Numbered from the stretch's first letter, positions 26,106 to 61,138 are shown. The stretch: DNA of 64,000 bases from an uncultured Bacteroidota bacterium (GCA_903926385.1 CAIYIS010000036.1:1-64000), one strand, 5' to 3'. The notes: a model not told the origin generated them from the letters alone. A program made the numbers and translations.

Positions 26106-26462
26106 ATCGTTTTCTTTTATCAAACTATCAAGTTCTCGCAGCAACATATCAAGTTCTTTCATCAACATATCAAGTTCTCGCATCAACATATCAAGTTCTT
26201 TCATCAACATATCAAGTTCTTTCATCAACATATCAAGTTCTTTCATCAACATATCAAGTTCTCGCATCAACATGTCAAGTTCTCGCATCAACATATCAAG
26301 TTCTTTCATCAACATGTCAAGTTCTCGCAGCAACATATCAAGTTCTTTCATCAACTTATCATCTTCTCTCAGAAACATGCAATCTTCGTTCAGAAACATG
26401 CAATTTTCGATTTTCAGTAAGCAATCTTCTCCCGGCAACTTATCAACTTCTTCCAAAAACCT
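26106..26462 (-). repeat. 21-bp tandem repeat array (locus B), heptad-coding on the minus strand
   Basis: Seventeen uninterrupted 21-base units lie in one register (26106, 26127, ... 26442). The central units are nearly identical (ATCAAGTTCT, then TTCATCAACAT, alternating with a CGCATCAACAT form) and diverge towards the right end. On the minus strand they encode heptads such as MLMKELD and MLMRELD, an ideal coiled-coil pattern. The frame opens only with TTG at 26456 and no clear ribosome site, so I list it as a repeat and not as a gene. Confidence 0.9.
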
Positions 26463-45577: not shown

Positions 45578-46174
45578 TGATTCTCTGGAGTTTCTGTATC
45601 CAACTTGAACAGCTCCCTTCTTTTGTGCCCATAGCGAGGCCTCAGCGAACTTTGTGGTAAAAAAATATCTGTAATTCTATACTCAAAATTTTACAGCAAA
45701 CTATCATTCAAAAATTTTACAACTATCGAATTCTAAAATTCATTTTCAGAATTTGCGGCTAACTTTTATTCTATAAAACCACAAAAATAGAATTTCGGAA
45801 TTCTTTCAAAAACCCACATTTGTCAATGTTTTTGCCTGTTACAAGAGCTTCAAAAAAAGGCATCAATAAAATGCAAGTTGATTACTTCTTTAATCATTTT
45901 TCTTAATCGCCCTAGTTCAAATATGATAACAATCAATATCAAAAACGGGAGTAAATAAATCAAAAAAGCAGAAGTAATGAAAGGCTATATTTTACAATGT
46001 TTTTCGAACATAATTAAAGTGTAAAAACAGTGCAAACCTGCGAAAAGGCAGGATATTACATGACTTGGCTCATCATTCAGTTCGTAAAGGCTCTATACAT
46101 TTGTCCCGGTTTTTAAATAGAATGTTTCATTAAACACAATTTTGATTACAAAAAGAAAACAAAAAACAATTATT
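45578..46174. other. 597-base gap with the promoter region of redox module 1
   Basis: AT-rich with no gene. 45690-45810 holds AAATTTTAC / GAATTCTAAAATTC phrases. 45923-45936 is ATGATAACAATCAA, a near match to an FNR-type TTGAT-N4-ATCAA site. The right end contains the ATGA-N6-TCAT dyad and -7 box listed separately. Confidence 0.5.
46060..46103 (+). promoter_or_regulatory. Promoter and dyad operator of redox module 1
   Basis: ATGA-CTTGGC-TCAT (46060-46073, centre 46066.5) precedes the -7 box TACATTTG (46096-46103). Centre-to-box distance is 29.5 bases, the same as for module 2. This places the dyad near -42 from the expected start, typical of a class II CRP/FNR-type activator. Confidence 0.6.
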
Positions 46175-47110
46175 ATGGAAAAAGAAGATGACAAATCAGA
46201 CCGTAGGAAGTTTCTAAAGCTTGGCGCCATAGCAGGCGGAGCAGTACTGTTAGGTTCGGCAATGAGCAAAGCCGTATCACTCGACAGTGTTAAAGAAACC
46301 GGTGAGAAAATAAAAGTTCTTACAGCGGATGGTAAAGTGGTTGAAGTGGATAGTAGCGCAATTGCACATCCTTCGGCCGAAAAACTTGCTCAAATCTCAG
46401 TTCGTGACGGTATTCCCGGCCGCAAACTGATAATGGTAATAGATCTTGCCCGATGTGCGAATGCAAGAAAATGTGTAGAAGGATGCCAGAAGATGCACAA
46501 CTTGCTTCCTCCTATCGAGTACATGAAAGTAAGGAAAATGCAGGACACTCCGCTTACCTCTCCTTATTGGTTTCCTACAGCATGCTATCACTGCGACAAT
46601 CCTCCTTGTACAAAAGTTTGTCCTGTAGGTGCTACTTATAAACGTTCGGATGGAATTGTGGCTGTAGACAGCGACAGATGTATAGGTTGTAAATTTTGTA
46701 TGGCAGCTTGCCCGTACTCGGCTCGTACCTTTAACTTTGGCCGACCAGAACAAAGGGAATATAATGAAACCCACAAACGATGCGATACACAAGTAAATTG
46801 CTGTGTAAGTAATGGAGGAATTGAAGGTACTGTTTCTAAATGCGATTTTTGCCCATCTCATGCTGCCGAAGGCACTTTGCCAATGTGTGTAACCGAATGC
46901 CCGAACGGAACAATTTTTTACGGAGATGAAATAGAAGATGTGGTTACAAACGGTGAAGACACTTTCAGATTGAAAAAATTATTGAGAGACAGAGCCGGAT
47001 ATCGCGAAATGGAAGAGTTAGGAACTAAACCACGTGTGTATTTCTTACCACCGGTGAAACGTAATTTCCCATTCGAAGAAGCGACTGAAGTATATAATAC
47101 AAAAGAATAA
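46175..47110 (+). CDS. Tat-exported four-cluster ferredoxin subunit (NrfC/PsrB-like), module 1
   Basis: From ATG 46175 the product has 311 residues. A twin-arginine signal (DRRKFLKLGAIAGGAVLLGS, RR at 10-11) predicts export of the folded protein. Four Cys groups follow: CANARKCVEGC, CYHCDNPPCTKVCPVG, CIGCKFCMAACPYS and CDFCPSHAAEGTLPMCVTECP. This is the DmsB/PsrB/NrfC pattern for four [4Fe-4S] clusters, facing the periplasm. It probably transfers electrons between the NrfD-like quinol protein (next gene, 21-base gap) and another redox partner. The molybdopterin subunit that normally accompanies it is absent. A frame extension to a TTG at 46142 would put 11 residues before the Tat signal and is unlikely. 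Confidence 0.9.
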   Translation: MEKEDDKSDRRKFLKLGAIAGGAVLLGSAMSKAVSLDSVKETGEKIKVLTADGKVVEVDSSAIAHPSAEKLAQISVRDGIPGRKLIMVIDLARCANARKCVEGCQKMHNLLPPIEYMKVRKMQDTPLTSPYWFPTACYHCDNPPCTKVCPVGATYKRSDGIVAVDSDRCIGCKFCMAACPYSARTFNFGRPEQREYNETHKRCDTQVNCCVSNGGIEGTVSKCDFCPSHAAEGTLPMCVTECPNGTIFYGDEIEDVVTNGEDTFRLKKLLRDRAGYREMEELGTKPRVYFLPPVKRNFPFEEATEVYNTKE

Positions 47111-47131
47111 TTTTTATTAAAAAATAAACTT

Positions 47132-48508
47132 ATGTTAGAAGAAAATAATAGAAAAGAAAGTACCCAATACGAAACCTTTACACAGGAAGAGTATATGGTA
47201 ATGAAGGATGATTTACTTCGTCCGATGCGAAAAATAAGACTAGGCGGTAAAGTTTGGATTGGATTTTTAATCATGGTTTGCTGTGCCGGTATTTATGCTT
47301 ATTATATACAGGAAACAAAAAGTAAATACGTTACCGTTTCGCTTAGAGATACAACATTCTGGGGAGTTTACATTTCTAACTTTGTGTTTTTTGTGGCACT
47401 TAGTTTAGTGGGTGTACTTATGTCGGCTGTGCTTAAACTCACCAATTTCGAATGGTACAGACCACTTTCCAGAATAGCAGAGATTATAGCAGTGGCTGCT
47501 ATTATGCTTGCGGGAGTTAGTATTGTTGCGGCAATGGGTCGTCCGGACAGACTACATTATTTGGTAATTCACGGGCGTATTCAATCTCCTATTGTTTGGG
47601 ATATCATAGTTATTATGACGTATCTGGCGACAAGTTTGGTTTTGCTCTACATACCTTTAATTCCATCTTTGGCAACCTGTAAAAATCACTTGACCAATTT
47701 ACCAAAATGGCAACTGAAAATGTATAATTTTCTTTCTTTTGGTTGGGAAGGAACTCCTGAACAATGGAAAATATTAAAAAGAACAGTAAAGGTTTTGACT
47801 GTATTAGTTATTCCTCTTGGTATTTCCATCCATACGGTTACGGCATGGCTTTTTGCTACTACACTAAGAGCAGAATGGGATAGTGCAAACTTGGGAGCGT
47901 ATTTCGTTTCGGGAGCCTTCTTATTAGGTGTGTCTGCAATGATATTGGCTATTTACATATTCAGGAAAGCCTATAATCTGGAAAAATACCTAACCGAAAT
48001 GCACTTTGATAAGCTCGGAAAAGTGCTAGTGTTAATGTCTTTAATTTATGGCTACTTTAACATTAATGAATTTTTAGTACCGGCTTATAAAATGTCGGGA
48101 TTGGTTAGTGATAAATTGAAAAATTTATTCAATGGCGAAGAGTCTGTGTTTTTCTGGTCAGTTTTGTTATTCGGAATTGTGTTACCTTCCATTTTACCAT
48201 TATTCAAGAAAATGAGAAAACCTTTACCGTTAACCCTTTTAGCCCTGGGGGTGTTTATTGCAGGTTGGTTTAAACGCTACTTGATTGTTATTCCTGGCCA
48301 GGCCGATCCATATCTTCCTATTCAAAATGTTCCGGATTCATGGAGACATTACAGTCCAAGTTTGGTGGAATGGACAATTGTTGCTGCAACCTTTGCAGCC
48401 ATGATGTTAATTGTAACATTGTTTTCGAAGTTTTTCCCTATCATTTCTGTTTGGGAAGTAGCCGAAGGCAGACTGGAAGGTAAAGAAGAAATAATAAACT
48501 ATAAATAA
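47132..48508 (+). CDS. NrfD/PsrC-family membrane protein, module 1
   Basis: The 458-residue protein has about ten hydrophobic segments. The first follows a charged N-terminal tail (KVWIGFLIMVCCAGIYAYYIQ), and internal hallmarks are FWGVYISNFVFFVALSLVGVLMSAVL and GRPDRLHYLVIHGRIQSPIVWD. The family binds quinol near the periplasmic side and lacks redox cofactors, so electrons must pass to the ferredoxin subunit. Its length is closer to ActC/PsrC-like members with ten helices than to the ~320-residue NrfD. It ends WEVAEGRLEGKEEIINYK and is followed eight bases later by the Ig-like protein gene. Confidence 0.9.
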   Translation: MLEENNRKESTQYETFTQEEYMVMKDDLLRPMRKIRLGGKVWIGFLIMVCCAGIYAYYIQETKSKYVTVSLRDTTFWGVYISNFVFFVALSLVGVLMSAVLKLTNFEWYRPLSRIAEIIAVAAIMLAGVSIVAAMGRPDRLHYLVIHGRIQSPIVWDIIVIMTYLATSLVLLYIPLIPSLATCKNHLTNLPKWQLKMYNFLSFGWEGTPEQWKILKRTVKVLTVLVIPLGISIHTVTAWLFATTLRAEWDSANLGAYFVSGAFLLGVSAMILAIYIFRKAYNLEKYLTEMHFDKLGKVLVLMSLIYGYFNINEFLVPAYKMSGLVSDKLKNLFNGEESVFFWSVLLFGIVLPSILPLFKKMRKPLPLTLLALGVFIAGWFKRYLIVIPGQADPYLPIQNVPDSWRHYSPSLVEWTIVAATFAAMMLIVTLFSKFFPIISVWEVAEGRLEGKEEIINYK

Positions 48509-48516
48509 TAAACAAG

Positions 48517-49065
48517 ATGAAAAATATAATATATAAAATTGCTATTCTGGCATCGTTTATATTGGTAGTGATGCCAACGTTTGCTCAGGATAAAGAAGCA
48601 AAAATCGCGTTGAAATTTGATAAAGTCGACTCTACCAATGTTTGCAAAGTTTCTGTTACTTCAGAAGGTGCAGCGGTTAAGGGGGTAAGCGTAAGTTTAT
48701 TTGTAAAACGCATGTTAAGCGACTTAATAATTGGAGAGCCTGGAACTACAGATGAGAGTGGAATGGCTAGTTTTACCGTACCAAAAGATATTCCTTCATC
48801 TGATGGAAATCTGACCTTAGTTGCTAAAATTATTGATGACGAAAATTATAAAAACACCCAAAGTAAAGGCGATGTAAATTGGGGAGTCGTTGTTGTAAGC
48901 GATAATTGTAATGTTGACGAACGCTCCATGTCGGCAGCCAGAAACAGAGCACCGGTATATTTAATAGCCACATCAATTTTTATTATCACTTTGGTTTGGG
49001 GCACATTAATATGGGCGGTTTTACAAGTATTTAAAATGAAACGAATAGTTAAACAAAAAAAATAA
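48517..49065 (+). CDS. Membrane-anchored Ig-like protein of redox module 1
   Basis: The 182-residue product has a Sec signal (MKNIIYKIAILASFILVVMPTFAQ), a ~110-residue beta domain (VCKVSVTSEGAAVKGVSVSLFVKR ... DESGMASFTVPKD ... GNLTLVAKIIDDE, the look of an Ig-like/carboxypeptidase-regulatory fold) and one C-terminal helix (VYLIATSIFIITLVWGTLIWAVLQVF) with a basic tail. No haem, iron-sulfur or metal motif is visible. It is probably a structural or assembly subunit holding the periplasmic proteins to the membrane. Module 2 has a longer homologue with two such domains. Confidence 0.75.
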   Translation: MKNIIYKIAILASFILVVMPTFAQDKEAKIALKFDKVDSTNVCKVSVTSEGAAVKGVSVSLFVKRMLSDLIIGEPGTTDESGMASFTVPKDIPSSDGNLTLVAKIIDDENYKNTQSKGDVNWGVVVVSDNCNVDERSMSAARNRAPVYLIATSIFIITLVWGTLIWAVLQVFKMKRIVKQKK

Positions 49066-49133
49066 TAAGATAAATAAAGTTCAATAAAAACAAGTTCAAT
49101 AAATAGTTAAACAAACAATTAAAATTAAATGTT

Positions 49134-49559
49134 ATGAAAAAAGTAAATCAAATTGCTCTACTACTGAGCGCAGGTGTTTTCTTAGTTGCTATGTCTTTTG
49201 GTACCGCCAAAGCACAGGCAAAGCCTAAAGGGAAAGAATGGAAAGTGGCCGATGCTGACGCAAAAAAGAAAAGTGCTGTAAAGAATGATGACGAAGCAAC
49301 CATTAAAGCAGGTAAAGATGTTTGGAATGTTCAATGCAAATCGTGTCATGGTGCAAAAGGATTAGGAGATGGTCCTAAAGCAGAAAAAATTGACATTTCT
49401 TGTGGTGATTTTTCATCAAAAGAAATTCAGGATTTATCTGATGGTGCGCTTTTCTATAAAACTACTGAGGGAAGAAAACCAATGCCATCTTTCAAAGAAA
49501 AACTAAGCGATACTGAACGCTGGCAAGTAGTAGCGTATATCAGAACGCTGAAAAAATAA
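49134..49559 (+). CDS. Periplasmic monohaem cytochrome c, module 1
   Basis: The 141-residue protein has a Sec signal (MKKVNQIALLLSAGVFLVAMSFGTAKAQ), a Lys-rich linker, haem motif CKSCH (68-72) and probable axial Met117 in GRKPMPSF. It ends RWQVVAYIRTLKK as class I cytochromes do. An extra Cys in ISCGDF (Cys90) is kept in both copies. It is about 75% identical to the module 2 cytochrome. It probably carries electrons away from the ferredoxin/NrfD-like unit. Confidence 0.92.
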   Translation: MKKVNQIALLLSAGVFLVAMSFGTAKAQAKPKGKEWKVADADAKKKSAVKNDDEATIKAGKDVWNVQCKSCHGAKGLGDGPKAEKIDISCGDFSSKEIQDLSDGALFYKTTEGRKPMPSFKEKLSDTERWQVVAYIRTLKK

Positions 49560-49578
49560 TTACTTTAAGTAATTATCC

Positions 49579-49667
49579 AAAACCCACAATTGATATAATT
49601 AAGACTCCCGAAAGCTCTGTTTTCTTAACAACTTTTGGGCTCTTGATTTATATCAATTGTGGGTTTT
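49579..49667. terminator. Long inverted repeat after module 1 (terminator-like)
   Basis: A perfect 20-bp stem (49579-49598 with 49648-49667) encloses a 49-base loop and ends in a T-run. The loop is large for a simple terminator and contains further partial pairing. An overlapping TTGATTTATATCAA (49643-49656) is a perfect FNR-consensus palindrome. Confidence 0.55.
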
Positions 49668-49942
49668 TATAAGTTTAACACCAACCCACGGCTCACCAAT
49701 TTGGTATTAAACATTGACCTCTGTATTCCCTATAAACAGAGACATTTCTTCTAAATTCCCCTCTCCATTTTTGTATTAGTTTATTGCTATACTCACTTAA
49801 TCTATTAGTCGTCTCAAGCCTCAAAACAGCAGTATGTATGACAAATGTCATAAATTGTATAGTTTTAAGCGTATACTTTTGCTTCCGATAAGACGCTTAG
49901 ACAAGCATAAATAACATTATATCAATAATAAAAAATAATATC
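49668..49942. other. Gap with promoter region of redox module 2
   Basis: AT-rich with no gene. It contains the promoter/dyad entry that follows; nothing else was recognised. Confidence 0.5.
49837..49881 (+). promoter_or_regulatory. Promoter and dyad operator of redox module 2
   Basis: TATGACAAATGTCATA (49837-49852) is a perfect inverted repeat of seven bases around two; its core is ATGA-N6-TCAT with centre 49844.5. The -7 box TACTTTTG is at 49874-49881 and a TTG lies 16 bases before it. Centre-to-box distance is 29.5 bases, equal to module 1. Confidence 0.7.
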
Positions 49943-50884
49943 ATGAATAACGAAGATAACCAATCAGACCGCAGAAAGTTTCTGAAATACGGATTTCTTG
50001 CTGCCGGACTCACAGTAGTCGGTGGTGGTTTACAAAAAGTTCTTTCACAGGATAAAGATAAAGATGCAGGGAAGAAAGTAAAAGTAATGACCACTGACGG
50101 AAAAGTTATAGAAGTGGACGATGCCCATTGTAAGGCAGCTCAATCTTGTTGCTCTCCGGCTACCCCTGAAGGAGCTAGACAAGGAATTCCAGGAAAGAAG
50201 TTTGTTATGGTAATTGACTTGTCACGTTGTGGTCATGAACTAAAATGTCAGCATTCTTGCCAAAGGTACCATCACCTTTCCGGTATGAATGTATGGTTGA
50301 AAGTTTTCAAAATGCAAGAAGGAGAACACACGGCCCCTTATTGGATGCCTAAGCCTTGTATGCATTGCGACAAACCACCATGTGTAAAAGTTTGTCCGGT
50401 AAGTGCTACTTTTAAAAGAGAGGATGGTATTGTGCTTGTGGATAACACTCGCTGCATCGGTTGTCGATTCTGTATGGCTGCCTGTCCTTATTCAACCCGA
50501 TCATTTAATTGGGAAGAGCCACAATTGTTAAATGAGACAACAGGCGTAGTATACTCTCCTGAAACAGGTTTCCCGCAAAAGAAAGGAACGGTTGAAAAAT
50601 GTGACTTTTGCCCAGATATGCTAAAACAAGGGAAACTTCCACATTGCGTAACAGCCTGTCCAAATGGAGTCTTTTTTATGGGAGATCTTAACGAAGATAC
50701 AGTTTCAAACGGTGCAGAAACTGTCCGTTTTAGCAAACTAATAAAAGATAAAGGAGGCTACAGATTGAACGAGATACTAGGTACCGAACCAAGTGTATAT
50801 TATCTTCCAGCTGTAAAACGTCTGTTCCCTTTCCAAGATCCACTTCCTGGTGAAAGTAATGAAGATAAAGAAAAAAAAGGATAG
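49943..50884 (+). CDS. Tat-exported four-cluster ferredoxin subunit, module 2
   Basis: The 313-residue homologue of the 46175 product has Tat signal SDRRKFLKYGFLAAGL and Cys groups CGHELKCQHSCQRYH, CMHCDKPPCVKVCPVS, CIGCRFCMAACPYS and CDFCPDMLKQGKLPHCVTACP. An extra CKAAQSCC segment appears between the signal and the first cluster and has no counterpart in module 1. It should hold four [4Fe-4S] clusters in the periplasm and partner the NrfD-like protein encoded 91 bases downstream. No catalytic subunit is adjacent. Confidence 0.9.
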   Translation: MNNEDNQSDRRKFLKYGFLAAGLTVVGGGLQKVLSQDKDKDAGKKVKVMTTDGKVIEVDDAHCKAAQSCCSPATPEGARQGIPGKKFVMVIDLSRCGHELKCQHSCQRYHHLSGMNVWLKVFKMQEGEHTAPYWMPKPCMHCDKPPCVKVCPVSATFKREDGIVLVDNTRCIGCRFCMAACPYSTRSFNWEEPQLLNETTGVVYSPETGFPQKKGTVEKCDFCPDMLKQGKLPHCVTACPNGVFFMGDLNEDTVSNGAETVRFSKLIKDKGGYRLNEILGTEPSVYYLPAVKRLFPFQDPLPGESNEDKEKKG

Positions 50885-50975
50885 AATCTCATTTCAAATT
50901 GTAAAAATTTAGGAGTGCATTAGAAATTAGCTGACGATTAAGGGAAGCATTATTAAAAATAAATTATAGTTGACA

Positions 50976-52349
50976 ATGGAAAATAAAGAAAGAAAAGAAT
51001 TGACGGAAACTGAAGCAATTGATTTATTGCATGAGTTAAACGAGGATATGTTGCCAAAAAAATTCGGCATAGTTGGTAATTCATGGACTGCGCTGCTTGT
51101 GATCATGCTTTTGACAGGTATTTATTGCTATATCAATCAAATAAGAAATGGTTTGTCAATTACAGGTATGAGGGATTTTGTGTTTTGGGGAATTTACATT
51201 TCCAATTTTGTGTTTTTCGTTGCCATAAGTTTGGTAGGATCATTAATAACAGCGGTATTATATCTATTAAAAGTTGAGTGGAGAGCACCATTATCTAGAA
51301 TATCTGAAGTAATTGCAGTTTCTGCAATTGTTTTCGCTGGTTTAATTATCATTGTAGATATGGGGCGACCAGACAGGATGATAAATATGGCACTTCACGG
51401 GAGAATTCAATCACCAATTATTTGGGATGTAATGGTTGTATCTACTTATATGACGCTTAGTTTTCTGCTGTTGTATTTCCCACTTCTTCCTGGTATCGCA
51501 TTTTGCAGAGACCGTTTAAAAGGAATACCAAAATGGCAACATAAGATGTATCAAATTCTATCATTGGGATGGAAATACAGTCCTCAACAATATGCTGTAG
51601 TTAAAAAAGCAATTACCATTTTATCAATAATTATTATTCCGGTGGCTCTTTGTATACATACCGTAACATCTTGGCTATTTGCAAGTACCTACAGACCTGG
51701 ATGGGATAGTACCAACTTTGGAGCATATTTTGTATCAGGGGCATTTTTGGTTGGTTCCGGAGGAGTTGTGGCGGGGATGTATATCCTAAGACAATTCAAT
51801 CCTGCGTATAAAAAATATCTTACTGATATGCATTTTGATAAGATGGGTAGGCTTTTGGCACTTCTTGCTTTGGTGTATGCATACTTCTCAATTAACGAGT
51901 ATCTTATTCCGGCATACAAAATGAAAGGGGAAGAAGCTGGCCACCTCAACGAATTATTTACAGGCTATTATGCACCAATGTTCTGGTCGGTACAGTTTTT
52001 TGGTATGATTCTCCCTATTTTGGTTCTTATGTTTAAAAAAGGTAGAAAACCATTACCAATGTTTATAATGGCAGTTTTTGTAATTGTTGGTGCGTGGTTT
52101 AAACGCTATTTGATTGTAATTCCTACTATGTCTTTTCTGCCAGTGCAGGAAATTCCGGAAGCGTGGAAACATTATTCTCCCACGTTTCAGGAGTGGGCAA
52201 TTACGGGAGGTTCATTAGCTGGTGCACTTTTGCTTATCACACTATTTGTAAGATTTTTTCCTATCATCTCAGTATGGGAAGTTGCAGAAGAAAAAGGAGT
52301 GTCTCATGATATTATTTACACACATTTACACGAAGGAAATGAAAAATAA
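50976..52349 (+). CDS. NrfD/PsrC-family membrane protein, module 2
   Basis: From ATG 50976 the product has 457 residues and aligns along its whole length with the module 1 protein, e.g. FWGIYISNFVFFVAISLVGSLITAVL, MGRPDRMINMALHGRIQSPIIWDVM, CIHTVTSWLFASTYRPGWDSTNFGAYFVSGAFL and FINEYLIPAYKM-type segments. It is a quinol-interacting membrane subunit. The last 11 bases overlap the start of the next gene (ATG 52339), which supports co-translation. Confidence 0.9.
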   Translation: MENKERKELTETEAIDLLHELNEDMLPKKFGIVGNSWTALLVIMLLTGIYCYINQIRNGLSITGMRDFVFWGIYISNFVFFVAISLVGSLITAVLYLLKVEWRAPLSRISEVIAVSAIVFAGLIIIVDMGRPDRMINMALHGRIQSPIIWDVMVVSTYMTLSFLLLYFPLLPGIAFCRDRLKGIPKWQHKMYQILSLGWKYSPQQYAVVKKAITILSIIIIPVALCIHTVTSWLFASTYRPGWDSTNFGAYFVSGAFLVGSGGVVAGMYILRQFNPAYKKYLTDMHFDKMGRLLALLALVYAYFSINEYLIPAYKMKGEEAGHLNELFTGYYAPMFWSVQFFGMILPILVLMFKKGRKPLPMFIMAVFVIVGAWFKRYLIVIPTMSFLPVQEIPEAWKHYSPTFQEWAITGGSLAGALLLITLFVRFFPIISVWEVAEEKGVSHDIIYTHLHEGNEK

Positions 52350-53283
52350 TCAACAAAATTCAATCGTAATTATCACGCGTTTCAAGGCTATTCTTGCTTC
52401 GCTTTTATTAGGTGCTTTTGCCCTTAGTTTCAATGTTGCTGTTTCTCAAGAAGCAAAAAAAGCAACTTCAAAACTTGCTTTTAAAATGAGACTTAGTTCT
52501 ATTTTAACTAATGGTATAAGGAGTGTGAAAGCAAATTTGAGTAAAATGGAGGACGGAAAAACTGTCTCTGTTGAAAATCTTGCATCTCCAATCAGGCTTT
52601 ATTTGAGTGAAGTAAAAAAATATGATCCTTCTAATGGAACTGGTTTAATCAGCAAAGCATATATTAATAGAGAGGGAGAAGGGGAATTCGAGTTTCCTGA
52701 CAATTTCAATAAGGTTACATCCGGAATGCATGAGTTTACCTTCATTGCTAAGTTAGAATCAGATTCTTTATATCAAGATGTGGAAAAGGAAGTAACTGTT
52801 TCAGATGCAAAACTAACTATTGAATATAATGGAAAGGATTCTATCAAAACTGCAACAGCTTGCCTGGTGGAGTGGAAGGGTAAGGAATATGTTCCTGTAA
52901 AGGAGGGAGAACTTAAACTTTGTATTAAAAGAGCTTTCAATTTCCTTCCTTTTGGGCCAAATGCACCTTCAACTGATGAGAACGGTAATGTTTCTGGAGA
53001 ACTACCCCTTGATGTTCCGGGAAACGCTAATGGTACTTTGACTATTGCAGCAAGATTAGAAGATCACGAAACTTTTGGAACGCTGGAAATAACCAAAGAT
53101 GTTCCATGGAATATTCTTCCAAAAGTAAATAAGGAACACGGGCGAACTTTATGGTCTCAGGGCGACAATGCCCCCTTATTATTGGTAATTTCATCATTGG
53201 TAATAATAACTGTTATTTGGGGTACAATAATATATTTGATATATTTGCTCACTAGAGTAAAGAAGTTTGGAAAGATGCCTTAA
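52339..53283 (+). CDS. Membrane-anchored double Ig-like protein of redox module 2
   Basis: From ATG 52339 (with AAGG six bases upstream) the product has 314 residues: signal segment AILASLLLGAFALSFNVAVSQ, two successive beta domains (about 35-150 and 160-270; the second ends in a stretch homologous to the single domain of the module 1 protein) and a C-terminal helix (APLLLVISSLVIITVIWGTIIYLIYLL). The frame is open to 52282, but that would embed the signal peptide. It carries no cofactor motif. The domain duplication relative to module 1 is the main structural difference between the modules. Confidence 0.75.
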   Translation: MKNNQQNSIVIITRFKAILASLLLGAFALSFNVAVSQEAKKATSKLAFKMRLSSILTNGIRSVKANLSKMEDGKTVSVENLASPIRLYLSEVKKYDPSNGTGLISKAYINREGEGEFEFPDNFNKVTSGMHEFTFIAKLESDSLYQDVEKEVTVSDAKLTIEYNGKDSIKTATACLVEWKGKEYVPVKEGELKLCIKRAFNFLPFGPNAPSTDENGNVSGELPLDVPGNANGTLTIAARLEDHETFGTLEITKDVPWNILPKVNKEHGRTLWSQGDNAPLLLVISSLVIITVIWGTIIYLIYLLTRVKKFGKMP

Positions 53284-53521
53284 GGCAAGATACACAAAAA
53301 ACGCTATGAAATAATTGAATTTTCAAAGAGTATAGAAAAATTGATTTCATTGGCACAATAGTTGTGACATAGTGTAAAATTCAATGAGTTTCGAAAATTA
53401 TCAAAAGAAACATGAGTATTTCACAATTTTTTTGAGCTTGTGTAGTCAATAAAATAACAAAATTAAAAAGTAAGTAGTAACAATAAATAAATAATAATTA
53501 ACAATTTAAAAAACAAATCGT
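53284..53521. other. Gap before the module 2 cytochrome gene
   Basis: 238 AT-rich bases. A CACAA-TAG-TTGTG palindrome lies at 53354-53366. No clear -7 box was seen, so the cytochrome is probably read from the upstream promoter. Confidence 0.35.
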
Positions 53522-53944
53522 ATGAAAAAAATCAGTAAAGCGGCTCTAATATTGGGCGCAGGAATGTTTATGGTAACTTTATCAATTGGCAGCCTAAGTG
53601 CCCAAGATAAACCAAAAGGTAAAGAATGGAAAGCTCCTGATGCAGAAGCCAAAAAGAAAAGCGCTGTAAAAAGTGATGAAGCTACACTTAAGGCAGGAAA
53701 AGATATTTGGGGTCAACAATGTAAATCTTGCCATGGTGTGAAAGGGCAAGGCGATGGTCCTAAAGCAGAAAAAATTGATATTTCATGTGGAGATTTTACT
53801 TCTGCAGAAGTTCAAGGTTTAAGCGAAGGAGCTCTTTTCTGGAAAATCACAGAAGGAAGAAAACCAATGCCATCTTTCAACGAAAAATTAAGTGAAACTG
53901 AGCGTTGGCAGGTAGTTGCTTACATCAAAACTCTTAAAAAATAA
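53522..53944 (+). CDS. Periplasmic monohaem cytochrome c, module 2
   Basis: The 140-residue near-copy of the module 1 cytochrome has a Sec signal ending LSAQ, haem motif CKSCH at 67-71, the conserved extra Cys in ISCGDF, and probable axial Met116 in GRKPMPSF. The block GPKAEKIDISCGDF is identical in both copies. Divergence is concentrated in the signal peptide and linker, as expected for a gene duplication under constraint. A strong terminator follows. Confidence 0.92.
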   Translation: MKKISKAALILGAGMFMVTLSIGSLSAQDKPKGKEWKAPDAEAKKKSAVKSDEATLKAGKDIWGQQCKSCHGVKGQGDGPKAEKIDISCGDFTSAEVQGLSEGALFWKITEGRKPMPSFNEKLSETERWQVVAYIKTLKK

Positions 53945-54113: not shown

Positions 54114-55097
54114 ATGTTAGTAGACAGCTTTAACAGGCAACATGATTATCTCCGAATTTCACTCACAGATAAGTGCAATTTACGATGCACATATTGCACA
54201 GTGGAAAACATACAGCAAGGGAGCAATGGCAAGTTGCCAATAATTACAGCAGATGAAATAGAAACTATCGCATCTGCTTTTGTTAAGCTCGGAGTAAACA
54301 AAATACGACTCACCGGAGGAGAACCACTAGTTAGAAAAGATGCTAAGGACATTATTACAAGGCTTTCAAAATATCCTGTTGAACTTACTATTACTACTAA
54401 TGGAGTTTTAGTAGATGAGTATTTGAGCACTTTTAAGGCAGCCGGCATACGTTCGGTTAACGTTAGTTTGGATACTTTGAGTAAAAAAAGGTACTTTTCC
54501 ATAACCAGACGAAATGAGTATGACAGAGCGTTAGCGAATATCAATTTGCTACTACAGGACGATTATCATGTAAAGGTGAATGTTGTAGTGATGAAGGGAG
54601 TTAACGATGATGAGGTGCTCAATTTTATTGAATGGACCAAAAACACTCCGGTTCATATTCGGTTTATTGAGTATATGCCTTTTTCGGGAAACGAATGGAG
54701 CAGTGAAAAAATGTTTTCGCATCAACAATTATTGGATTTGATTTCATCAAAGTATGAAATAATAAAATTACTGAACGAAAAGAACGATACGGCAAAAAAA
54801 TATTTTGTGCCAAAACACAAAGGAACCTTTGCTGTTATTAGCACCATGAGCGAGCCCTTTTGTTCAGGATGCAACCGGATGCGACTTACCTCGGATGGTA
54901 AGATGTACAACTGTTTGTATGAAAAACAAGAAATGGACTTATTAACGCCCTTGCGCAACGGAATGAATATTGAATCATTGATACAGGAATGTGTATTGAA
55001 TAAAAAAGCTATGCTGGGAGGTAACAATGAAAACGAAAATTGGGGTAAGCTGAATACTGAGACTCGCGAAAAAAGTATGATTAACCTCGGGGGATAA
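54114..55097 (+). CDS. moaA: GTP 3',8-cyclase MoaA (molybdopterin step 1)
   Basis: This 327-residue radical-SAM enzyme has the N-terminal cluster motif CNLRCTYC (Cys21, 25, 28). The C-terminal second cluster motif is FCSGCNRMRLTSDGKMYNC, and the enzyme ends in the Gly-Gly tail required for radical chemistry (NLGG). It converts GTP to 3',8-cyclo-GTP; MoaC (the fusion at 59830) completes cPMP. It is the first gene of a rightward, tightly packed operon running to 60750. Confidence 0.96.
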   Translation: MLVDSFNRQHDYLRISLTDKCNLRCTYCTVENIQQGSNGKLPIITADEIETIASAFVKLGVNKIRLTGGEPLVRKDAKDIITRLSKYPVELTITTNGVLVDEYLSTFKAAGIRSVNVSLDTLSKKRYFSITRRNEYDRALANINLLLQDDYHVKVNVVVMKGVNDDEVLNFIEWTKNTPVHIRFIEYMPFSGNEWSSEKMFSHQQLLDLISSKYEIIKLLNEKNDTAKKYFVPKHKGTFAVISTMSEPFCSGCNRMRLTSDGKMYNCLYEKQEMDLLTPLRNGMNIESLIQECVLNKKAMLGGNNENENWGKLNTETREKSMINLGG

Positions 55098-55141
55098 ATT
55101 TTTTTATACCTCGTTATTACTATTTAAACCTATCGAACAAA

Positions 55142-56332
55142 ATGATATCCGTTAATGAAGCCAAAAGTCTGACAGAGGAAAACAGTCTTGTACTGGAACC
55201 AACGGAGGTCTTATTATACGAAGCTACCGGAAAGATTATCACATCAGACATTTATTCAAACACAGATATGCCTCCGTTTAATCAATCATCCATGGATGGG
55301 TATGGATTCAGATATTCTGATTGGAATCATCAAATCCCTCTTGAAATAATTGATGAGATTCCTGCAGGAGTGTTTAGCGAAAGAAAACTTTTGCCTAATA
55401 CTGCCGTTAGAATATTTACCGGAGCTCCTGTCCCAGAAGGATGCGATACTGTGGTTATGCAGGAGAAAGTAAAAGTAATTCAAAACAAGGTTTATATTAA
55501 TGATGAATTGATAACCGAAGGGAAAAATGTTAGACTGCAAGGTGCACAAACTGCAAAAGGAAGTATTGCAGTAACAGCTGGAACTAAAATTACGGCAGGG
55601 GTTGCGGGCTATTTAGCAGGATTAGGTGTTGAGAAAGTTTCTGTTTACAGATATCCTAAAATATGTATCATCACCACAGGAAAAGAACTTACCCCACCCG
55701 GACAACTATTAAAAGCGGGCAAAGTATATGAATGCAATTCATATACTTTGAATGCTGCATTAAGAGAAATCAATTGTGAGCCAGTTACAATGATAACTGC
55801 GGACGATAATGAGGCAGAAATAACTAATGTAATTGAAACAAATTTGCTTCTTTGCGATATAATAATTGTTTCGGGTGGAGTTTCCGTTGGCGATTACGAT
55901 TTTGTTGCAAAGGCATTTGATAACTGCGGTGTAAAATGCATATTTCACAAAGTGAAGCAAAAGCCCGGAAAGCCTATTTATTTCGGAAAAAAGAATAATA
56001 CTTTGGTGTTTGGATTGCCAGGCAATCCTTCAGCATTGTTGACTTGCTACCATGAATATATTTTTCCGTCAATTATGAAAATGACAGGACATATACCACA
56101 AAAAAGTGATAAGCTGATTCTCCCGTTAGCTAGTACTTATAGCAAAAAGGAAGGACTAACTTATTTTCTTCAGGGAAAAATAAAGGGGTCACAAGTGTTT
56201 CCGTTCTTGGTGCAAGAGTCATTTCAGATGAGTTCTTTTGCTAGTGCAGATTGTATTATCCAAATAGATGAAGAGGTGACAGAAGTTAAGGAAGGGTCAT
56301 TAGTTGAAATTCATATTTTAAATCAATATTAG
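55142..56332 (+). CDS. moeA: Molybdopterin molybdenumtransferase MoeA
   Basis: The 396-residue protein has MoeA hallmarks: PPFNQSSMDGYGF (substrate loop), FTGAPVPEGCDTVVMQEK, the GVSVGDYDF segment of the MoeA/MogA fold, KQKPGKPIYFGKKNNTLVFGLPGNPSALLTCYHEYI, and a C-terminal beta domain. It inserts molybdate into the adenylated pterin made by MogA, which is fused to MoaC at 59830. Its stop codon is immediately followed by the ATG of the next gene. Confidence 0.96.
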   Translation: MISVNEAKSLTEENSLVLEPTEVLLYEATGKIITSDIYSNTDMPPFNQSSMDGYGFRYSDWNHQIPLEIIDEIPAGVFSERKLLPNTAVRIFTGAPVPEGCDTVVMQEKVKVIQNKVYINDELITEGKNVRLQGAQTAKGSIAVTAGTKITAGVAGYLAGLGVEKVSVYRYPKICIITTGKELTPPGQLLKAGKVYECNSYTLNAALREINCEPVTMITADDNEAEITNVIETNLLLCDIIIVSGGVSVGDYDFVAKAFDNCGVKCIFHKVKQKPGKPIYFGKKNNTLVFGLPGNPSALLTCYHEYIFPSIMKMTGHIPQKSDKLILPLASTYSKKEGLTYFLQGKIKGSQVFPFLVQESFQMSSFASADCIIQIDEEVTEVKEGSLVEIHILNQY

Positions 56333-56674
56333 ATGAATAAATATGAAATAAAAGGAAAATTGTGGATGGAAGTGGACAAGCTTCATATTGGAAAAGGCAG
56401 AGCAAGATTGTTAGAGAAAATAAAAGAACATGGTTCGATTTCGAAAGCTGCGCAATCTGTTGAAATATCGTACAGACAAGCCTGGGCAATGATTGATGAT
56501 ATGAACCGCACATCGGAAAAAGAAATTGTTATAAAATCGATAGGTGGAAATAAAGGCGGAGGAACTATTCTGACACAAGAAGGAGAGAATCTATTAAAAC
56601 AATTTCAAAAAATGGAAAACGAGTTTCAAAAATTCCTGTTGTTATTTTCAAAAGAACTTAATCAGAAACATTAA
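56333..56674 (+). CDS. ModE-like winged-helix regulator without molybdate-binding domain
   Basis: The 113-residue protein consists only of the ModE N-terminal winged HTH: GKLWMEVDKLHIGKGRARLLEKIKEHGSISKAAQSVEISYRQAWAMIDDMN, then GGNKGGGTILTQEGENLLKQF. Full ModE (~260 residues) has C-terminal molybdate-binding MOP domains, which are absent. It probably regulates molybdenum genes but would need another way to sense the metal. It is translationally coupled on both sides (adjacent to moeA; overlaps the next start by one base). Confidence 0.88.
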   Translation: MNKYEIKGKLWMEVDKLHIGKGRARLLEKIKEHGSISKAAQSVEISYRQAWAMIDDMNRTSEKEIVIKSIGGNKGGGTILTQEGENLLKQFQKMENEFQKFLLLFSKELNQKH

Positions 56675-57408
56675 TGACAACCACTCTGCTGCTTTTTTAT
56701 TCATTGCTATTAATCATTGCATTTCTTTATGCATCTGTAGGACATGGAGGAGCCAGCGGCTATCTGGCATTGATGACTTTCTTTTCATTTTCGCCTGACA
56801 CCATGAAACCTGCTGCATTGATAATAAATATTGCTGTTTCGTTGATAGCTTTTATTCAATATTACCGCAACGGTCATTTCAGATGGAGTTTGTTTTTGCC
56901 ATTTGCTGTAGCTTCAATTCCTGCCGCTTTTATTGGCGGACTTATAACTGTAAATGCTGGATTCTACAAAAAAACACTTGCTGTATTATTGCTCTTTTCT
57001 GTAATAAAACTTTTAGGAGTAAAAATTAAAATTAATAATTTCGAATTGAAACAAAACATTTTAATCTCAATTCTGATAGGAGCCTTTATAGGTCTTTTGT
57101 CTGGTATGATTGGGATTGGCGGAGGTATAATATTAAGTCCATTGATTTTGTTGTTGCACTGGGCTGACATGAAACAAACAGCAGCAGTGTCGGCATTGTT
57201 TATTTTTGTTAATTCACTAGCTGGTTTGGCTGGTTTATTTATTAAGGGATTTGATTATAAACCTGAAATAGGAATGATGCTTATAATTGCATTTGTGGGA
57301 GGATTGGTTGGTTCATATTTCGGAGCCAAAAAATTTGAAAGTAATTTGTTGTCAAAAATACTGGCACTCGTTCTTGTAATAGCTTGTGTGAAATTAATTA
57401 TTACGTAA
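56674..57408 (+). CDS. TSUP-family anion transporter (TauE/SafE)
   Basis: The 244-residue membrane protein has about eight hydrophobic segments in two similar halves, with the family motifs VGHGGASGYLALMTF in the first half and SGMIGIGGGIILSPLILLLHWADMKQTAAVSALFIFVNSLAGLAGL in the second. TSUP proteins move sulfite, sulfoacetate and other sulfur anions. Within a molybdenum cofactor operon a role with sulfite, or with an oxyanion resembling molybdate, is conceivable, but only its position suggests this. Confidence 0.88.
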   Translation: MTTTLLLFYSLLLIIAFLYASVGHGGASGYLALMTFFSFSPDTMKPAALIINIAVSLIAFIQYYRNGHFRWSLFLPFAVASIPAAFIGGLITVNAGFYKKTLAVLLLFSVIKLLGVKIKINNFELKQNILISILIGAFIGLLSGMIGIGGGIILSPLILLLHWADMKQTAAVSALFIFVNSLAGLAGLFIKGFDYKPEIGMMLIIAFVGGLVGSYFGAKKFESNLLSKILALVLVIACVKLIIT

Positions 57409-57411
57409 ACA

Positions 57412-58011
57412 ATGAATAGAAAACGAGATCCTGTGAACGGTTACATTCTTGCGGGAGGGAAAAGCCTGCGTATGGGAACTGATAAGGCTTTTCTTGCATT
57501 TAGGGGTAAAACTTTAATTCAGCATGTAATCGAAAAGTTAAGCCCGGCAGTGGACGAAATAATTGTTATTTCGAATAATTTGAGTTTTTCAGAAATGAAG
57601 ACTGATGTGATAAGTGATGTGATAAAAGATAAAGGGCCGGCCGGAGGGATACACGCGGCACTTCAACATTGCAGTTCTTCAAAAATATTTGTTGTTAGTT
57701 GCGATATGCCTTTCGTAAATACAGAAGCAATAAAACACATAATAAAGAACTCTTTGAATACTCAAATTACTTTGCCATTTCATAAAAATAATCTTGAACC
57801 ATTGTTTGGAGTTTACTCGAAAGATTGTTTTTTGCAATGGGAGCAACTAGTGCAACAAAACGTCTTGAAACTATCGGATATTATTTCTCATTTTTCATTG
57901 CAGAAGTTAGTTACTGATAAACACCCAGTGTTTACTAACGCAATGTTCACAAATATCAATACAAAAGATGATTTTATAAACGCACAAAAAGTAGACACCA
58001 ATGGAAATTAA
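57412..58011 (+). CDS. mobA: Molybdenum cofactor guanylyltransferase MobA
   Basis: The 199-residue protein starts with the nucleotidyltransferase motif YILAGGKSLRMGTDKAFL (residues 11-28) and contains KGPAGGIHAAL and VVSCDMPFVNTE (metal-binding Asp). It attaches GMP to the molybdenum cofactor, making the bis-MGD form used by DMSO-reductase-family enzymes such as nitrate, polysulfide or formate oxidoreductases. The genome therefore probably encodes such an enzyme outside this window. It overlaps moaD by 11 bases. Confidence 0.93.
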   Translation: MNRKRDPVNGYILAGGKSLRMGTDKAFLAFRGKTLIQHVIEKLSPAVDEIIVISNNLSFSEMKTDVISDVIKDKGPAGGIHAALQHCSSSKIFVVSCDMPFVNTEAIKHIIKNSLNTQITLPFHKNNLEPLFGVYSKDCFLQWEQLVQQNVLKLSDIISHFSLQKLVTDKHPVFTNAMFTNINTKDDFINAQKVDTNGN

Positions 58012-58234
58012 TTTACTTGTGTTCGGGCAACTATCCGACATAACCAAATGCTCAGAAATGAAAATTGCTCACGTGAACGATACACAGCAACTCATCATCA
58101 AACTTACTACTCAGTTTCCGGAGTTGGCATTATCAAAATATTCTGTTGCTGTGAATCGGAAGGTTGTTTTTGAAAATACAATGTTAACGGATAAAGATAC
58201 AGTGGCTCTGCTTCCGCCATTTTCGGGTGGATAA
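58001..58234 (+). CDS. moaD: Molybdopterin synthase sulfur carrier subunit MoaD
   Basis: The 77-residue ubiquitin-like protein ends in the obligatory Gly-Gly (PPFSGG), which is activated by MoeB and carries the dithiolene sulfur as thiocarboxylate. Length is normal. It lies directly before its activating enzyme gene. Confidence 0.93.
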   Translation: MEINLLVFGQLSDITKCSEMKIAHVNDTQQLIIKLTTQFPELALSKYSVAVNRKVVFENTMLTDKDTVALLPPFSGG

Positions 58235-58248
58235 TAAAGTAAAAAAGA

Positions 58249-59358
58249 ATGGCAGAGAATAACAGATATCATAGGCAAATAATTCTGAAAGAATTCGGAG
58301 AGTCGGCACAAGTAAAACTGAAGCAGGCGAAAGTGTTAGTTATTGGTTCGGGCGGTTTGGGCTGTCCGGCACTTCAATATTTAGCAGCTGCAGGTATTGG
58401 TACGATAGGAATTGTCGATTTTGATTTAGTCGACTTATCTAATCTGCAACGTCAGACACTTTATTCGATGAAAGATATTGGTAAGCCCAAAGCATTAGTA
58501 GCCGCTTTTAAACTTAACGATTCGAATCCCGAAATAAATGTTGTACCTTATACCTTTAAACTTACAAAAGAAAAAGCGTTGGAATTATTTCCGTTCTATG
58601 ACATTATAATGGATGGAACAGATAATTTTTCATCGCGTTACTTGATTAACGATGCTTGTGTGATATTAAACAAACCTTTGATATATGGTGCTGTTCTGCG
58701 TTTCGAAGGACAGGTGGGAGTTTTCAATATGGCGGATAAACAATCAGGAATAAAAACCAATTACCGCGATATGTTTCCTGAACCACCCGAAGCAACATCT
58801 GTAATGAGTTGTAAAGAAGCGGGGGTGCTTGGTGTATTGCCCGGAATTATTGGTGTAATGCAGGCCACGGAGATTATTAAAATTATTTCAGGAGTTGGCA
58901 AACCGCTTTGCAACAAAATTATTTCTTATAATTCGTTACATAATTCCTTTCATGATTTCGAAATTTATCCGAGCACTATAGCGACAAATAATTATCCAAA
59001 AGATGAAGCAGAATTTTTGAACTTTGATTACGATTGGTTTTGCGGGGCATGTTCGAATGTTAAAGAAATTACTGTTGACCAATTTGACAGTATGAGAAAA
59101 AATGAAAAAGTGATGATTATAGATGTGAGAGAAAAGGGCGAACACCCACTGATAACAGAATTTGATTATGTCAATATCCCCTTAAATGAATTTCAGAAAT
59201 CTATGTCAGGTATATCAACAGAAAATAAGATTGTGATATTTTGTAAATCAGGTAAACGCAGCGCCACCGCTGTGAGTATGCTTAATGAAGCGTTTCCTCA
59301 ATGCGATGTATGTAGTTTAGTCGAAGGCATTGAGAATTGGAAAATGATAAATCAATAA
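58249..59358 (+). CDS. moeB: MoeB-type MoaD adenylyltransferase fused to a rhodanese domain
   Basis: The 369-residue protein has an E1-like adenylation domain: Rossmann motif GSGGLG (33-38), DFDLVDLSNLQRQ, and DGTDNF (122-127). A rhodanese domain (about 275-369) follows, with active-site loop CKSGKRS (332-338) whose Cys can carry persulfide. E. coli MoeB binds zinc with two CxxC pairs. Here the first is NYRD (171-174) and only CGAC (265-268) remains, so the usual zinc site looks broken. It activates MoaD and may supply its sulfur through the rhodanese part. Confidence 0.93.
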   Translation: MAENNRYHRQIILKEFGESAQVKLKQAKVLVIGSGGLGCPALQYLAAAGIGTIGIVDFDLVDLSNLQRQTLYSMKDIGKPKALVAAFKLNDSNPEINVVPYTFKLTKEKALELFPFYDIIMDGTDNFSSRYLINDACVILNKPLIYGAVLRFEGQVGVFNMADKQSGIKTNYRDMFPEPPEATSVMSCKEAGVLGVLPGIIGVMQATEIIKIISGVGKPLCNKIISYNSLHNSFHDFEIYPSTIATNNYPKDEAEFLNFDYDWFCGACSNVKEITVDQFDSMRKNEKVMIIDVREKGEHPLITEFDYVNIPLNEFQKSMSGISTENKIVIFCKSGKRSATAVSMLNEAFPQCDVCSLVEGIENWKMINQ

Positions 59359-59364
59359 TTAATA

Positions 59365-59817
59365 ATGAAAGAAAAAAAGAAACATACAGTGTTGGTTGAA
59401 GGCCCTATAACCGCAGCTTTTATAGCCGACAGCATACAAAAGCATAGTAGTAAAACAAACATTGGAGCACATGATATTTTTCTCGGGCAGGTGCGTAATG
59501 ATTTAATTAGCGGAAAAACTGTTGTTGCTATTGAGTATTCAGCATACAGTGAAATGGCAGAAGAAAAATTTCATGCCATTCGCGAAGCAGCATTTGCCAA
59601 ATATAATTTGGTATGTATGCATATTTATCACAGCACAGGGATGGTAAAAGCAGGAGAAATTTGTTTGTTTGTTTTCGTTTCGACCAAACATCGTAAAGAT
59701 GCTTTTGATGCATGTCGCGAAATAACAGAGCAAATAAAGGCATTGGCACCGGTTTGGGGAAAAGAAATTTTTGAAGACGAAACCTACACCTGGAAAGAAT
59801 TAAATAATGGTAATTGA
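59365..59817 (+). CDS. moaE: Molybdopterin synthase catalytic subunit MoaE
   Basis: The 150-residue protein has GAHDIFLGQVRND and YSAYSEMAEEKFHAIREAAFAKY, then HSTGMVKAGEICLFVFVSTKHRKDAFDACREITEQIKALAPVWGKEIFED, with the conserved active-site lysines (Lys in QIKALAP and in WGKE). With MoaD it converts cPMP to molybdopterin. Confidence 0.95.
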   Translation: MKEKKKHTVLVEGPITAAFIADSIQKHSSKTNIGAHDIFLGQVRNDLISGKTVVAIEYSAYSEMAEEKFHAIREAAFAKYNLVCMHIYHSTGMVKAGEICLFVFVSTKHRKDAFDACREITEQIKALAPVWGKEIFEDETYTWKELNNGN

Positions 59818-59829
59818 TAACAATACGAG

Positions 59830-60750
59830 ATGATAGACATAACCTATAAATCGAACACACTTAGAACAGCCACAGCACAGGCTATTGTAAAGGTTAGTAA
59901 ACAAGAAACAATGGATGCGGTGCTCAACAAAACTGTACCAAAAGGAGATGTTTTTGAAATGGCCAAAACAGCGGGCTTGTTTGCCGTTAAGCGCACCAGC
60001 GATATGATTCCGGATTGTCATCCCATGCCGGTAGAATTCACATCTGTTCGATTTGCTGTGAACGGACTTGAAATTACTATTGAAACCGAAGTGCACACTA
60101 TTTACAAAACGGGAGTGGAAGTTGAAGCTATGCATGGTGCTTCTGTGGTTGCCCTTACTGTTTACGATATGCTGAAGCCTATTGATAAAGGAATAGAAAT
60201 TTGCTCCATAAAACTGCTGGAGAAAAAAGGTGGCAAATCCGATTTCCTTGACAATTTCCGTAAAGATTTAAAAGCCGCTGTTATAGTTTGCTCCGATAGT
60301 ATTGCTGCCGGCAAAAAAACAGATAAAGCTGGAAAGGCAATTATTCAGAAACTTGAAAAGTGTAATGTGTCGGTTGCGAATTATATTATTATTCCCGATG
60401 ATAAAGAATTTATTCAAAAAACCGTTTTGAAACTTCATTCAGAAAAAACAGACCTGATTATTTTGACCGGAGGCACGGGGCTTTCGCCACGAGATAATAC
60501 CCCGGAGGCAATTAAACCTTTGTTAGATAAAGAAGTTCCGGGAATAATGGAAGCTGCCCGAAATTATGGACAAAACCGAACACCTTTTTCCATGCTTTCG
60601 AGAGGAATAGCAGGCATTAAGGGCAGTACGCTTATTTTGACTTTACCCGGTTCAACAAAGGGAGCCTACGAATCGATGGATGCATTGTTTCCATACATTC
60701 TCCATATATTTAGAGTAACAGCCGGGGCCGAACATGAGCAGGGTAATTGA
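59830..60750 (+). CDS. MoaC-MogA fusion (cPMP synthase and molybdopterin adenylyltransferase)
   Basis: The 306-residue bifunctional protein has residues 1-~140 as MoaC (LRTATAQAIV, KGDVFEMAKTAGLFAVKRTSDMIPDCHPM, GVEVEAMHGASVVALTVYDM). The MoaC part lacks the usual ~15-residue N-terminal extension (it starts MIDITYKSNTLRTATA). From ~147 on it is MogA/MoaB (AAVIVCSDSIAAGKKTDKAG, LILTGGTGLSPRDNTPEAI, the PGSTKGAYES phosphate loop). It combines the second step of cPMP synthesis with the adenylation before MoeA. It is the last gene of the operon. Confidence 0.94.
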   Translation: MIDITYKSNTLRTATAQAIVKVSKQETMDAVLNKTVPKGDVFEMAKTAGLFAVKRTSDMIPDCHPMPVEFTSVRFAVNGLEITIETEVHTIYKTGVEVEAMHGASVVALTVYDMLKPIDKGIEICSIKLLEKKGGKSDFLDNFRKDLKAAVIVCSDSIAAGKKTDKAGKAIIQKLEKCNVSVANYIIIPDDKEFIQKTVLKLHSEKTDLIILTGGTGLSPRDNTPEAIKPLLDKEVPGIMEAARNYGQNRTPFSMLSRGIAGIKGSTLILTLPGSTKGAYESMDALFPYILHIFRVTAGAEHEQGN

Positions 60751-60991: not shown

Positions 60992-61138
60992 GTTTCTACG
61001 GTGGTACCGAAAGTTTCGGCACCACCGTAGAACTTTTCAGCACCACCTTAGAAAGCTCTGGCGCTAACGCAGAAAATTTCTGTGCTACCGCAGAAAATTT
61101 CTGCGCCACCGTAGAAAGTTTCGGTACTACCTTAAAAA
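60992..61138 (-). repeat. Degenerate 21-bp tandem repeat array (locus D)
   Basis: Seven units start at 60992, 61013, 61034, 61055, 61076, 61097 and 61118. The consensus is near GTTTCTGCGCCACCG followed by TAGAAA. The first unit is inverted relative to the second, giving a hairpin 60993-61032 whose stem is broken by one mismatch. On the minus strand the units read as heptads (VVPKLST, VAQKFSA, VAQKFSA, LAPELSK). Confidence 0.88.

Follow-up and report, generated by a model that had tools for sequence, protein, structure and literature searches.

Two four-gene units in a Bacteroidota genome may encode menaquinol:cytochrome c oxidoreductases without a catalytic subunit of their own

We analysed a 64,000-nucleotide stretch of DNA (the window) from an uncultured Bacteroidota bacterium, which forms the first 64000 bases of contig C36 in genome G000 (4.27 Mb, 85 contigs, 99.75% complete). 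The window carries two copies of a four-gene unit that encodes an iron-sulfur (Fe-S) protein with a twin-arginine translocation (Tat) signal, a membrane protein of the NrfD family, a beta-sandwich protein with a transmembrane (TM) anchor, and a monohaem cytochrome c. Based on sequence comparison, on which the functional statements throughout rest, we propose with a probability of roughly 70% that each copy forms a membrane-bound menaquinol:cytochrome c oxidoreductase that has no catalytic subunit of its own and serves interchangeable endpoints. If this is true, Bacteroidota would possess a compact alternative to cytochrome bc1 and to alternative complex III (ACIII), with one core for several respiratory endpoints, and the module would be a candidate electron supply for clade II nitrous oxide (N2O) reducers that lack nosG and nosH.

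Both units lie head to tail on the plus strand (46175-49559 and 49943-53944, from open reading frame (ORF) calls) and are separated by 383 bases. Within the units the intergenic gaps are at most 238 bases, and one gene pair overlaps. A preliminary description of the window had reported two copies of one gene order, and all eight genes were found as described:

46175..47110, +, copy 1 Fe-S subunit with Tat signal SDRRKFLK and four cluster motifs; alternative TTG start at 46142
47132..48508, +, copy 1 NrfD-family membrane subunit, 458 aa (Pfam NrfD, 97 bits)
48517..49065, +, copy 1 third subunit, 182 aa, with signal peptide, one beta-sandwich (immunoglobulin (Ig)-like) domain and C-terminal TM helix
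49134..49559, +, copy 1 soluble periplasmic monohaem cytochrome c (CKSCH; Pfam Cytochrome_CBB3/Cytochrom_C)
49943..50884, +, copy 2 Fe-S subunit with Tat signal (4Fe-4S dicluster in the family scan)
50976..52349, +, copy 2 NrfD-family membrane subunit, 457 aa from ATG (Pfam NrfD, 110.5 bits)
52339..53283, +, copy 2 third subunit with signal peptide, two beta-sandwich domains and C-terminal TM helix
53522..53944, +, copy 2 soluble periplasmic monohaem cytochrome c (class I cytochrome c in the family scan)

Family scans assign 4Fe-4S dicluster, NrfD (cut-off 25.8 bits) and class I cytochrome c to both copies. As the description had also stated, the ORFs and family scans of the window showed neither a molybdopterin nor a multihaem subunit. 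The numbers of predicted promoters (24, with 29.7 expected by chance) and terminators (6, with 5.0 expected) are close to chance, with models that do not include Bacteroidota promoters.

To find relatives, 84,980 species genomes were scanned with two short peptide patterns, which miss distant relatives. The scan returned 60 loci, several of which are short contigs or come from metagenome-assembled genomes. As the same gene order recurs in dozens of Bacteroidota genomes, chance is ruled out as its cause. In an even draw of Bacteroidota genomes that included the window's own, the module was present in 8 of 247. Its neighbours differ between loci. Downstream of the module we found genes for aa3 oxidase together with SCO (L075, L079, L081 and L083), cbb3 oxidase genes for CcoNO and CcoP (L069 and L087), or NapA and NapB (L085 and L089). 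Hidden Markov model checks confirm representative endpoint genes (for instance, NapA with 1415 bits at a cut-off of 904), and the loci with these enzymes are labelled mostly as Bacteroidales, Marinilabiliales or similar. Upstream, we considered the 46 modules with at least two upstream genes and counted an outer-membrane barrel if it was at most three genes away on the same strand. A barrel of the DUF5777 family was present in 34 of these loci, 33 of which also have a monohaem lipoprotein (family F4). The recurrent upstream set comprises the barrel, F4, and at least one of the EB_dh-like, dihaem, hexahaem and YceI lipoproteins. The locus of Flavobacterium fluvii DSM 19978 (L070), for example, combines the module with a hexahaem lipoprotein, F4 and DUF5777. 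One locus with a Bacteroidota-type module (L051, CALPUN020000055.1) is titled Bifidobacterium breve, a label that is probably wrong.

Because one core stands beside changing endpoints, we favour a quinol:cytochrome c oxidoreductase over the orphaned anchor of a molybdoenzyme. A lost or unlinked catalytic subunit is disfavoured since it would not account for the shared position of oxidases, Nap and barrels. The preliminary description had proposed a minimal quinol:cytochrome c oxidoreductase, which is supported by the core's position beside aa3, cbb3, NapA and the barrel and by the absence of bc1 described below. Its other proposal, that quinol is wired to a separately encoded enzyme, holds in so far as such wiring is possible; the partner varies by locus, however, and no single missing catalytic subunit emerges.

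In the proposed oxidoreductase, NrfD would oxidise quinol on its periplasmic side, as suggested by homology to ActC of ACIII and by conserved site residues. The electrons would then cross the Fe-S protein to the class I cytochrome c. This cytochrome would be held on the complex by the third subunit and would deliver the electrons to interchangeable endpoints. Among the relatives, the acceptors could be aa3, cbb3, Nap, or the outer-membrane DUF5777 barrel with its haem lipoproteins. In the window's genome they would most likely be NosZ, cbb3 and the NorBC-like enzymes, in parallel to ACIII and caa3.

The third subunit has no significant family match in Pfam or NCBIfam. An AlphaFold2 model of the copy 2 protein (mean predicted local distance difference test (pLDDT) score 85.5) comprises a signal helix, two beta-sandwich domains and a TM helix at 280-311, and the copy 1 protein lacks the first of these domains; the single and double forms noted previously are thus confirmed. 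A known redox fold was rejected, as a fold search with the model returned only generic Ig/macroglobulin-type sandwiches and the sequence matches among solved structures are mostly ubiquitin chains that look spurious. In 11 relative loci, the cytochrome is fused to the third subunit in one protein of about 300 aa, with the cytochrome domain preceding the Ig/TM domain. This fusion argues that the two subunits function together, and it makes docking of the cytochrome on the third subunit likely.

An alignment of 54 Fe-S sequences contains 15 conserved Cys, of which 14 occur in 54/54 and one in 47/54. The four cluster motifs reported for this Tat ferredoxin are present, but the first (C-x5-C-x3-C) has three Cys and not four, so that one of the clusters may be a [3Fe-4S] cluster or use another ligand. 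For NrfD, the only solved structures that match at E<=0.001 are ActC chains of ACIII, and the copy 1 protein shares 25% identity with the genome's own ActC. Ser152 and Asp157 of the copy 1 NrfD align with ActC Ser164/Asp169 and are invariant in 58/58 relatives (quinone-site residues of ActC as given in PMC8076601). In the quinone-reactive branch of the NrfD superfamily, a Ser is conserved near the quinone pocket and is absent in ActF (PMC8076601); Ser152 corresponds to this residue. In NCBIfam, the top match of the Fe-S subunits is DsrO (158.6 bits for copy 1 and 185.4 for copy 2; cut-off 200) and that of the NrfD subunits is DsrP (113.5 and 126.5 bits; cut-off 350). A published dendrogram places ActC, ActF and DsrP within one of four main groups (PMC8076601). 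By these matches, the nearest relatives of the Fe-S and NrfD subunits are ActC and DsrOP, and not Psr/Nrf as had been assumed previously.

The genome of the window contains complete ACIII genes followed by caa3 (contig C45), a cbb3 cluster (C81), a NorBC-like pair (C48; L132:8316-10077) and a clade II NosZ above cut-off (C23). The nos cluster (L133:4743-11144) encodes a cytochrome c lipoprotein, nosZ, a nosL-like gene, nosD, nosF and nosY, and no nosG or nosH was read from its ORFs. The Act genes and bc1 had been named before as genes to look for; the former are present as the separate ACIII, and a search of the genome contigs found no bc1. The large subunit of the NorBC-like pair, inspected by eye, appears to lack the usual helix VI FeB histidine (it reads WNQ) and scores only weakly as ccoN. 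Of 36 genomes of the same genus, 11 carry the module. A NorB-like gene occurs in 10/11 carriers versus 6/25 other genomes (p=0.0003), or in 9/10 versus 3/16 when only genomes that are at least 90% complete are counted (p=0.0008), and NosZ occurs in 7/11 versus 4/25 (p=0.008), in comparisons that all ignore shared ancestry.

Several observations weigh against the oxidoreductase. The genome's own ACIII could already supply reduced cytochrome c, which leaves the need for two more complexes unexplained, and the window itself shows no acceptor. The Nap-linked loci also hold NapG/NapH-like genes, that is, another quinol dehydrogenase. At the quinone site, ActC His139 and Asp253 are replaced by Leu in the module's NrfD family. 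The His139 position in transmembrane helix 2 (TMH2), at which the quinone-reactive branch has Glu, Asp, His or Ser (PMC8076601), aligns with Leu92, and a Ser stands one residue earlier. The disregard of shared ancestry weakens the co-occurrence with NorB-like genes and NosZ, and the NorB-like protein possibly differs from canonical nitric oxide reductases. In favour of the oxidoreductase we count the changing endpoints, the fusion, ActC as the only solved match, the invariant Ser and Asp, the missing bc1 and nosG/nosH, the co-occurrence itself, three module carriers without a PF00384 match, and the precedents CbcSTU and SirCD (the last two points are taken up below).

The opposite electron flow would also make use of the same genes: the complex would reduce quinone with electrons from a periplasmic cytochrome c or from outer-membrane donors. 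The direction is not fixed by sequence, and cassettes of barrel and cytochromes would suit electron uptake as well. Nevertheless, the links to aa3, cbb3 and Nap and the co-occurrence with NosZ all require that cytochrome c is reduced, and class I cytochromes are usually higher in potential than menaquinone. We therefore consider quinone reduction very unlikely.

Directly downstream of copy 2 lies a block of genes for molybdenum cofactor (Moco) synthesis and related functions:

54114..60750, +, moaA, moeA, ModE-like helix-turn-helix gene, TauE/SafE, mobA, ThiF/moeB-rhodanese, moaE, moaC-moaB

This neighbourhood raises the alternative that the module is the electron wiring of a dedicated molybdoenzyme encoded elsewhere. 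In two Flavobacterium loci (L057 and L067), homologues of moeA to moaCB lie in the same order directly upstream of the module, and NapA directly follows it in L085 and L089. Most module loci, however, have no Moco genes. Furthermore, the molybdopterin reductases of the window's genome (PF00384, the dimethyl sulfoxide (DMSO)-reductase family; other molybdoenzyme families were outside the search) are only two formate dehydrogenases with NuoEF-type partners and ActB, and these three enzymes explain the presence of the Moco genes. The draft genomes of three module carriers (G037, G040 and G041) have no PF00384 match. An unlinked DMSO-reductase-family subunit, which had been suggested as worth searching for, is thus not needed. 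We judge a dedicated molybdoenzyme improbable, and the Moco genes are probably context rather than part of the four-subunit complex.

The two copies had been described as a tandem duplication. Their identity is 52% for the Fe-S protein, 49-51% for NrfD, 28% for the Ig protein and 74% for cytochrome c. In the NrfD tree, copy 1 groups with modules from Flavobacterium and further Bacteroidota that are linked to a barrel, whereas copy 2 falls into a separate clade with the same-genus genomes G023, G020 and G021 and the barrel-linked loci L033-L037; for both, the nearest neighbours are modules in other genomes that have a linked barrel. When the Fe-S, NrfD and Ig proteins are used as BLAST queries, the other window copy ranks only about 35th-46th. 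The separate clades, the identity of about 50% and the low mutual rank rule out a recent tandem duplication. Only the cytochromes are close to each other, with same-genus cytochromes as their closest relatives, which suggests homogenisation or a common partner. The copy 2 NrfD is 94% identical to that of G023, where a copy-1-like Fe-S gene lies at the end of one contig and a copy-2-like NrfD gene at the start of another. This is consistent with the same tandem order in G023, broken by the assembly.

The frequent barrels suggest a different role, in which the module would provide the inner-membrane part of a chain for extracellular electron transfer and the window's genome would use an unlinked barrel. 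Electrons would pass from quinol via NrfD and the Fe-S protein to cytochrome c, then to a haem lipoprotein with the DUF5777 barrel, to surface multihaem lipoproteins and to an external acceptor, or in reverse from an external donor. DUF5777 (PF19089; 240-245 bits in the linked loci) is a protein of about 300 aa, which none of 5.39 million open-access papers in our search mentions. Its structure model (pLDDT 85.3) is a beta-barrel with 12 long strands that resembles the 12-stranded porins NanC and KdgM (target template-modelling scores 0.71 and 0.75). Acidic residues directly after the lipid Cys are a surface-export signal in Bacteroidetes (PMC5080379). By a simple lipobox pattern, they occur in 31/33 F4, 14/14 dihaem, 6/6 hexahaem and 12/14 EB_dh lipoproteins, compared to 14/56 other lipobox matches. 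The high frequency of barrel and F4, the porin-like model, these linked lipoproteins, the placement of both window copies in the NrfD tree and the presence of a DUF5777 cassette on the window's contig all fit this route.

On the other side, neither window copy adjoins a DUF5777 barrel. The only cassette in the genome (DUF5777, YceI-like, monohaem lipoprotein; C36:157085-159006, L108:9086-11007) is on the same contig but about 103 kb from the module, and DUF5777 is present in 36/36 same-genus genomes, whether or not they carry the module. Moreover, conduits of the MtrCAB type are far larger than a 12-stranded barrel and its monohaem partner. The cassettes also differ in content, and the surface exposure of the lipoproteins is a prediction. 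An extracellular role is hence somewhat less likely than not. Equally tentative is the broader idea that core, DUF5777 barrel and surface haem lipoproteins make up an undescribed form of extracellular electron transfer in Bacteroidota, including cultured Flavobacterium, and that evolution has reconnected the same core to the respiration of oxygen, nitrate and N-oxides. If this were true, the barrel-linked form would be a genetically testable candidate in cultured Flavobacterium.

Some further features were observed. The same contig encodes a secreted protein of 308 aa that contains seven CxxCH motifs (C36:76416-77342, L007:16417-17343), and at 28561-29193 of the window a SirB-like membrane domain is fused to a C-terminal cytochrome c domain. 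In Flavobacterium, a ResB/cytochrome c assembly fusion protein lies a few genes downstream of the module (L057:15643-18789). Short tandem repeats with a 21-base period are found at 13745-13860, 26112-26361 (11.9 copies) and 61009-61131, and repeats resembling them, as judged by translation, occur on contig C7 (L010:4217-4862, L011:4976-5356).

No description of the four-gene unit was found in the open-access literature (most subscription journals lie outside this search), and the four-protein complex is apparently undescribed. Membership in ACIII, Psr/Nrf or DsrMKJOP was rejected, as each fails on a defining subunit or a cut-off. ACIII (ActABCDEF; PDB 6btm, 6f0k, 6lod) resembles the module in its ActC-type NrfD, ActB-like Fe-S domain and ActE-like monohaem cytochrome c, and it feeds haem-copper oxidases. 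The module, however, has an Ig/TM subunit in place of the pentahaem ActA, the large N-terminal domain of ActB and the second NrfD-like protein ActF, and ActA, a large ActB and ActF are absent beside both window copies, the genome's ACIII being encoded separately. PsrABC and NrfABCD differ in that they co-encode the molybdopterin or multihaem catalytic subunit. With DsrMKJOP the module shares its best NCBIfam matches, both below cut-off, but it has the Ig protein and a monohaem cytochrome instead of DsrM, DsrK and the trihaem DsrJ, none of which was seen among the window ORFs or the recurrent neighbour families of relatives. Porin-cytochrome conduits such as MtrCAB similarly tie a barrel and cytochromes to a quinol dehydrogenase; the DUF5777 barrel, by contrast, has about 300 aa, 12 predicted strands and a monohaem lipoprotein partner. 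Thus, a barrel co-encoded with cytochromes is not found beside the window copies, and that of the relatives (33/46) belongs to another, smaller barrel family.

Functional parallels are known from other bacteria. In Campylobacter, Nap is reported to be fed via the menaquinol:cytochrome c reductase Qcr, which shows that such wiring occurs (PMC6195509). CbcSTU (Cbc4) of Geobacter is described as a menaquinol:ferricytochrome c oxidoreductase that consists of an Fe-S protein, a membrane subunit and a c-type cytochrome (PMC11434368). Compared by this described organisation and not by sequence, it resembles the module in having no catalytic subunit, whereas the module's cytochrome is a class I monohaem protein and an Ig/TM subunit is added. 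The stand-alone SirCD of Shewanella, an Fe-S and NrfD/PsrC-type quinol dehydrogenase, can replace CymA for several acceptors (PMC11434368). It differs from the module in that it has neither a cytochrome nor an Ig subunit of its own and belongs to a different phylum.

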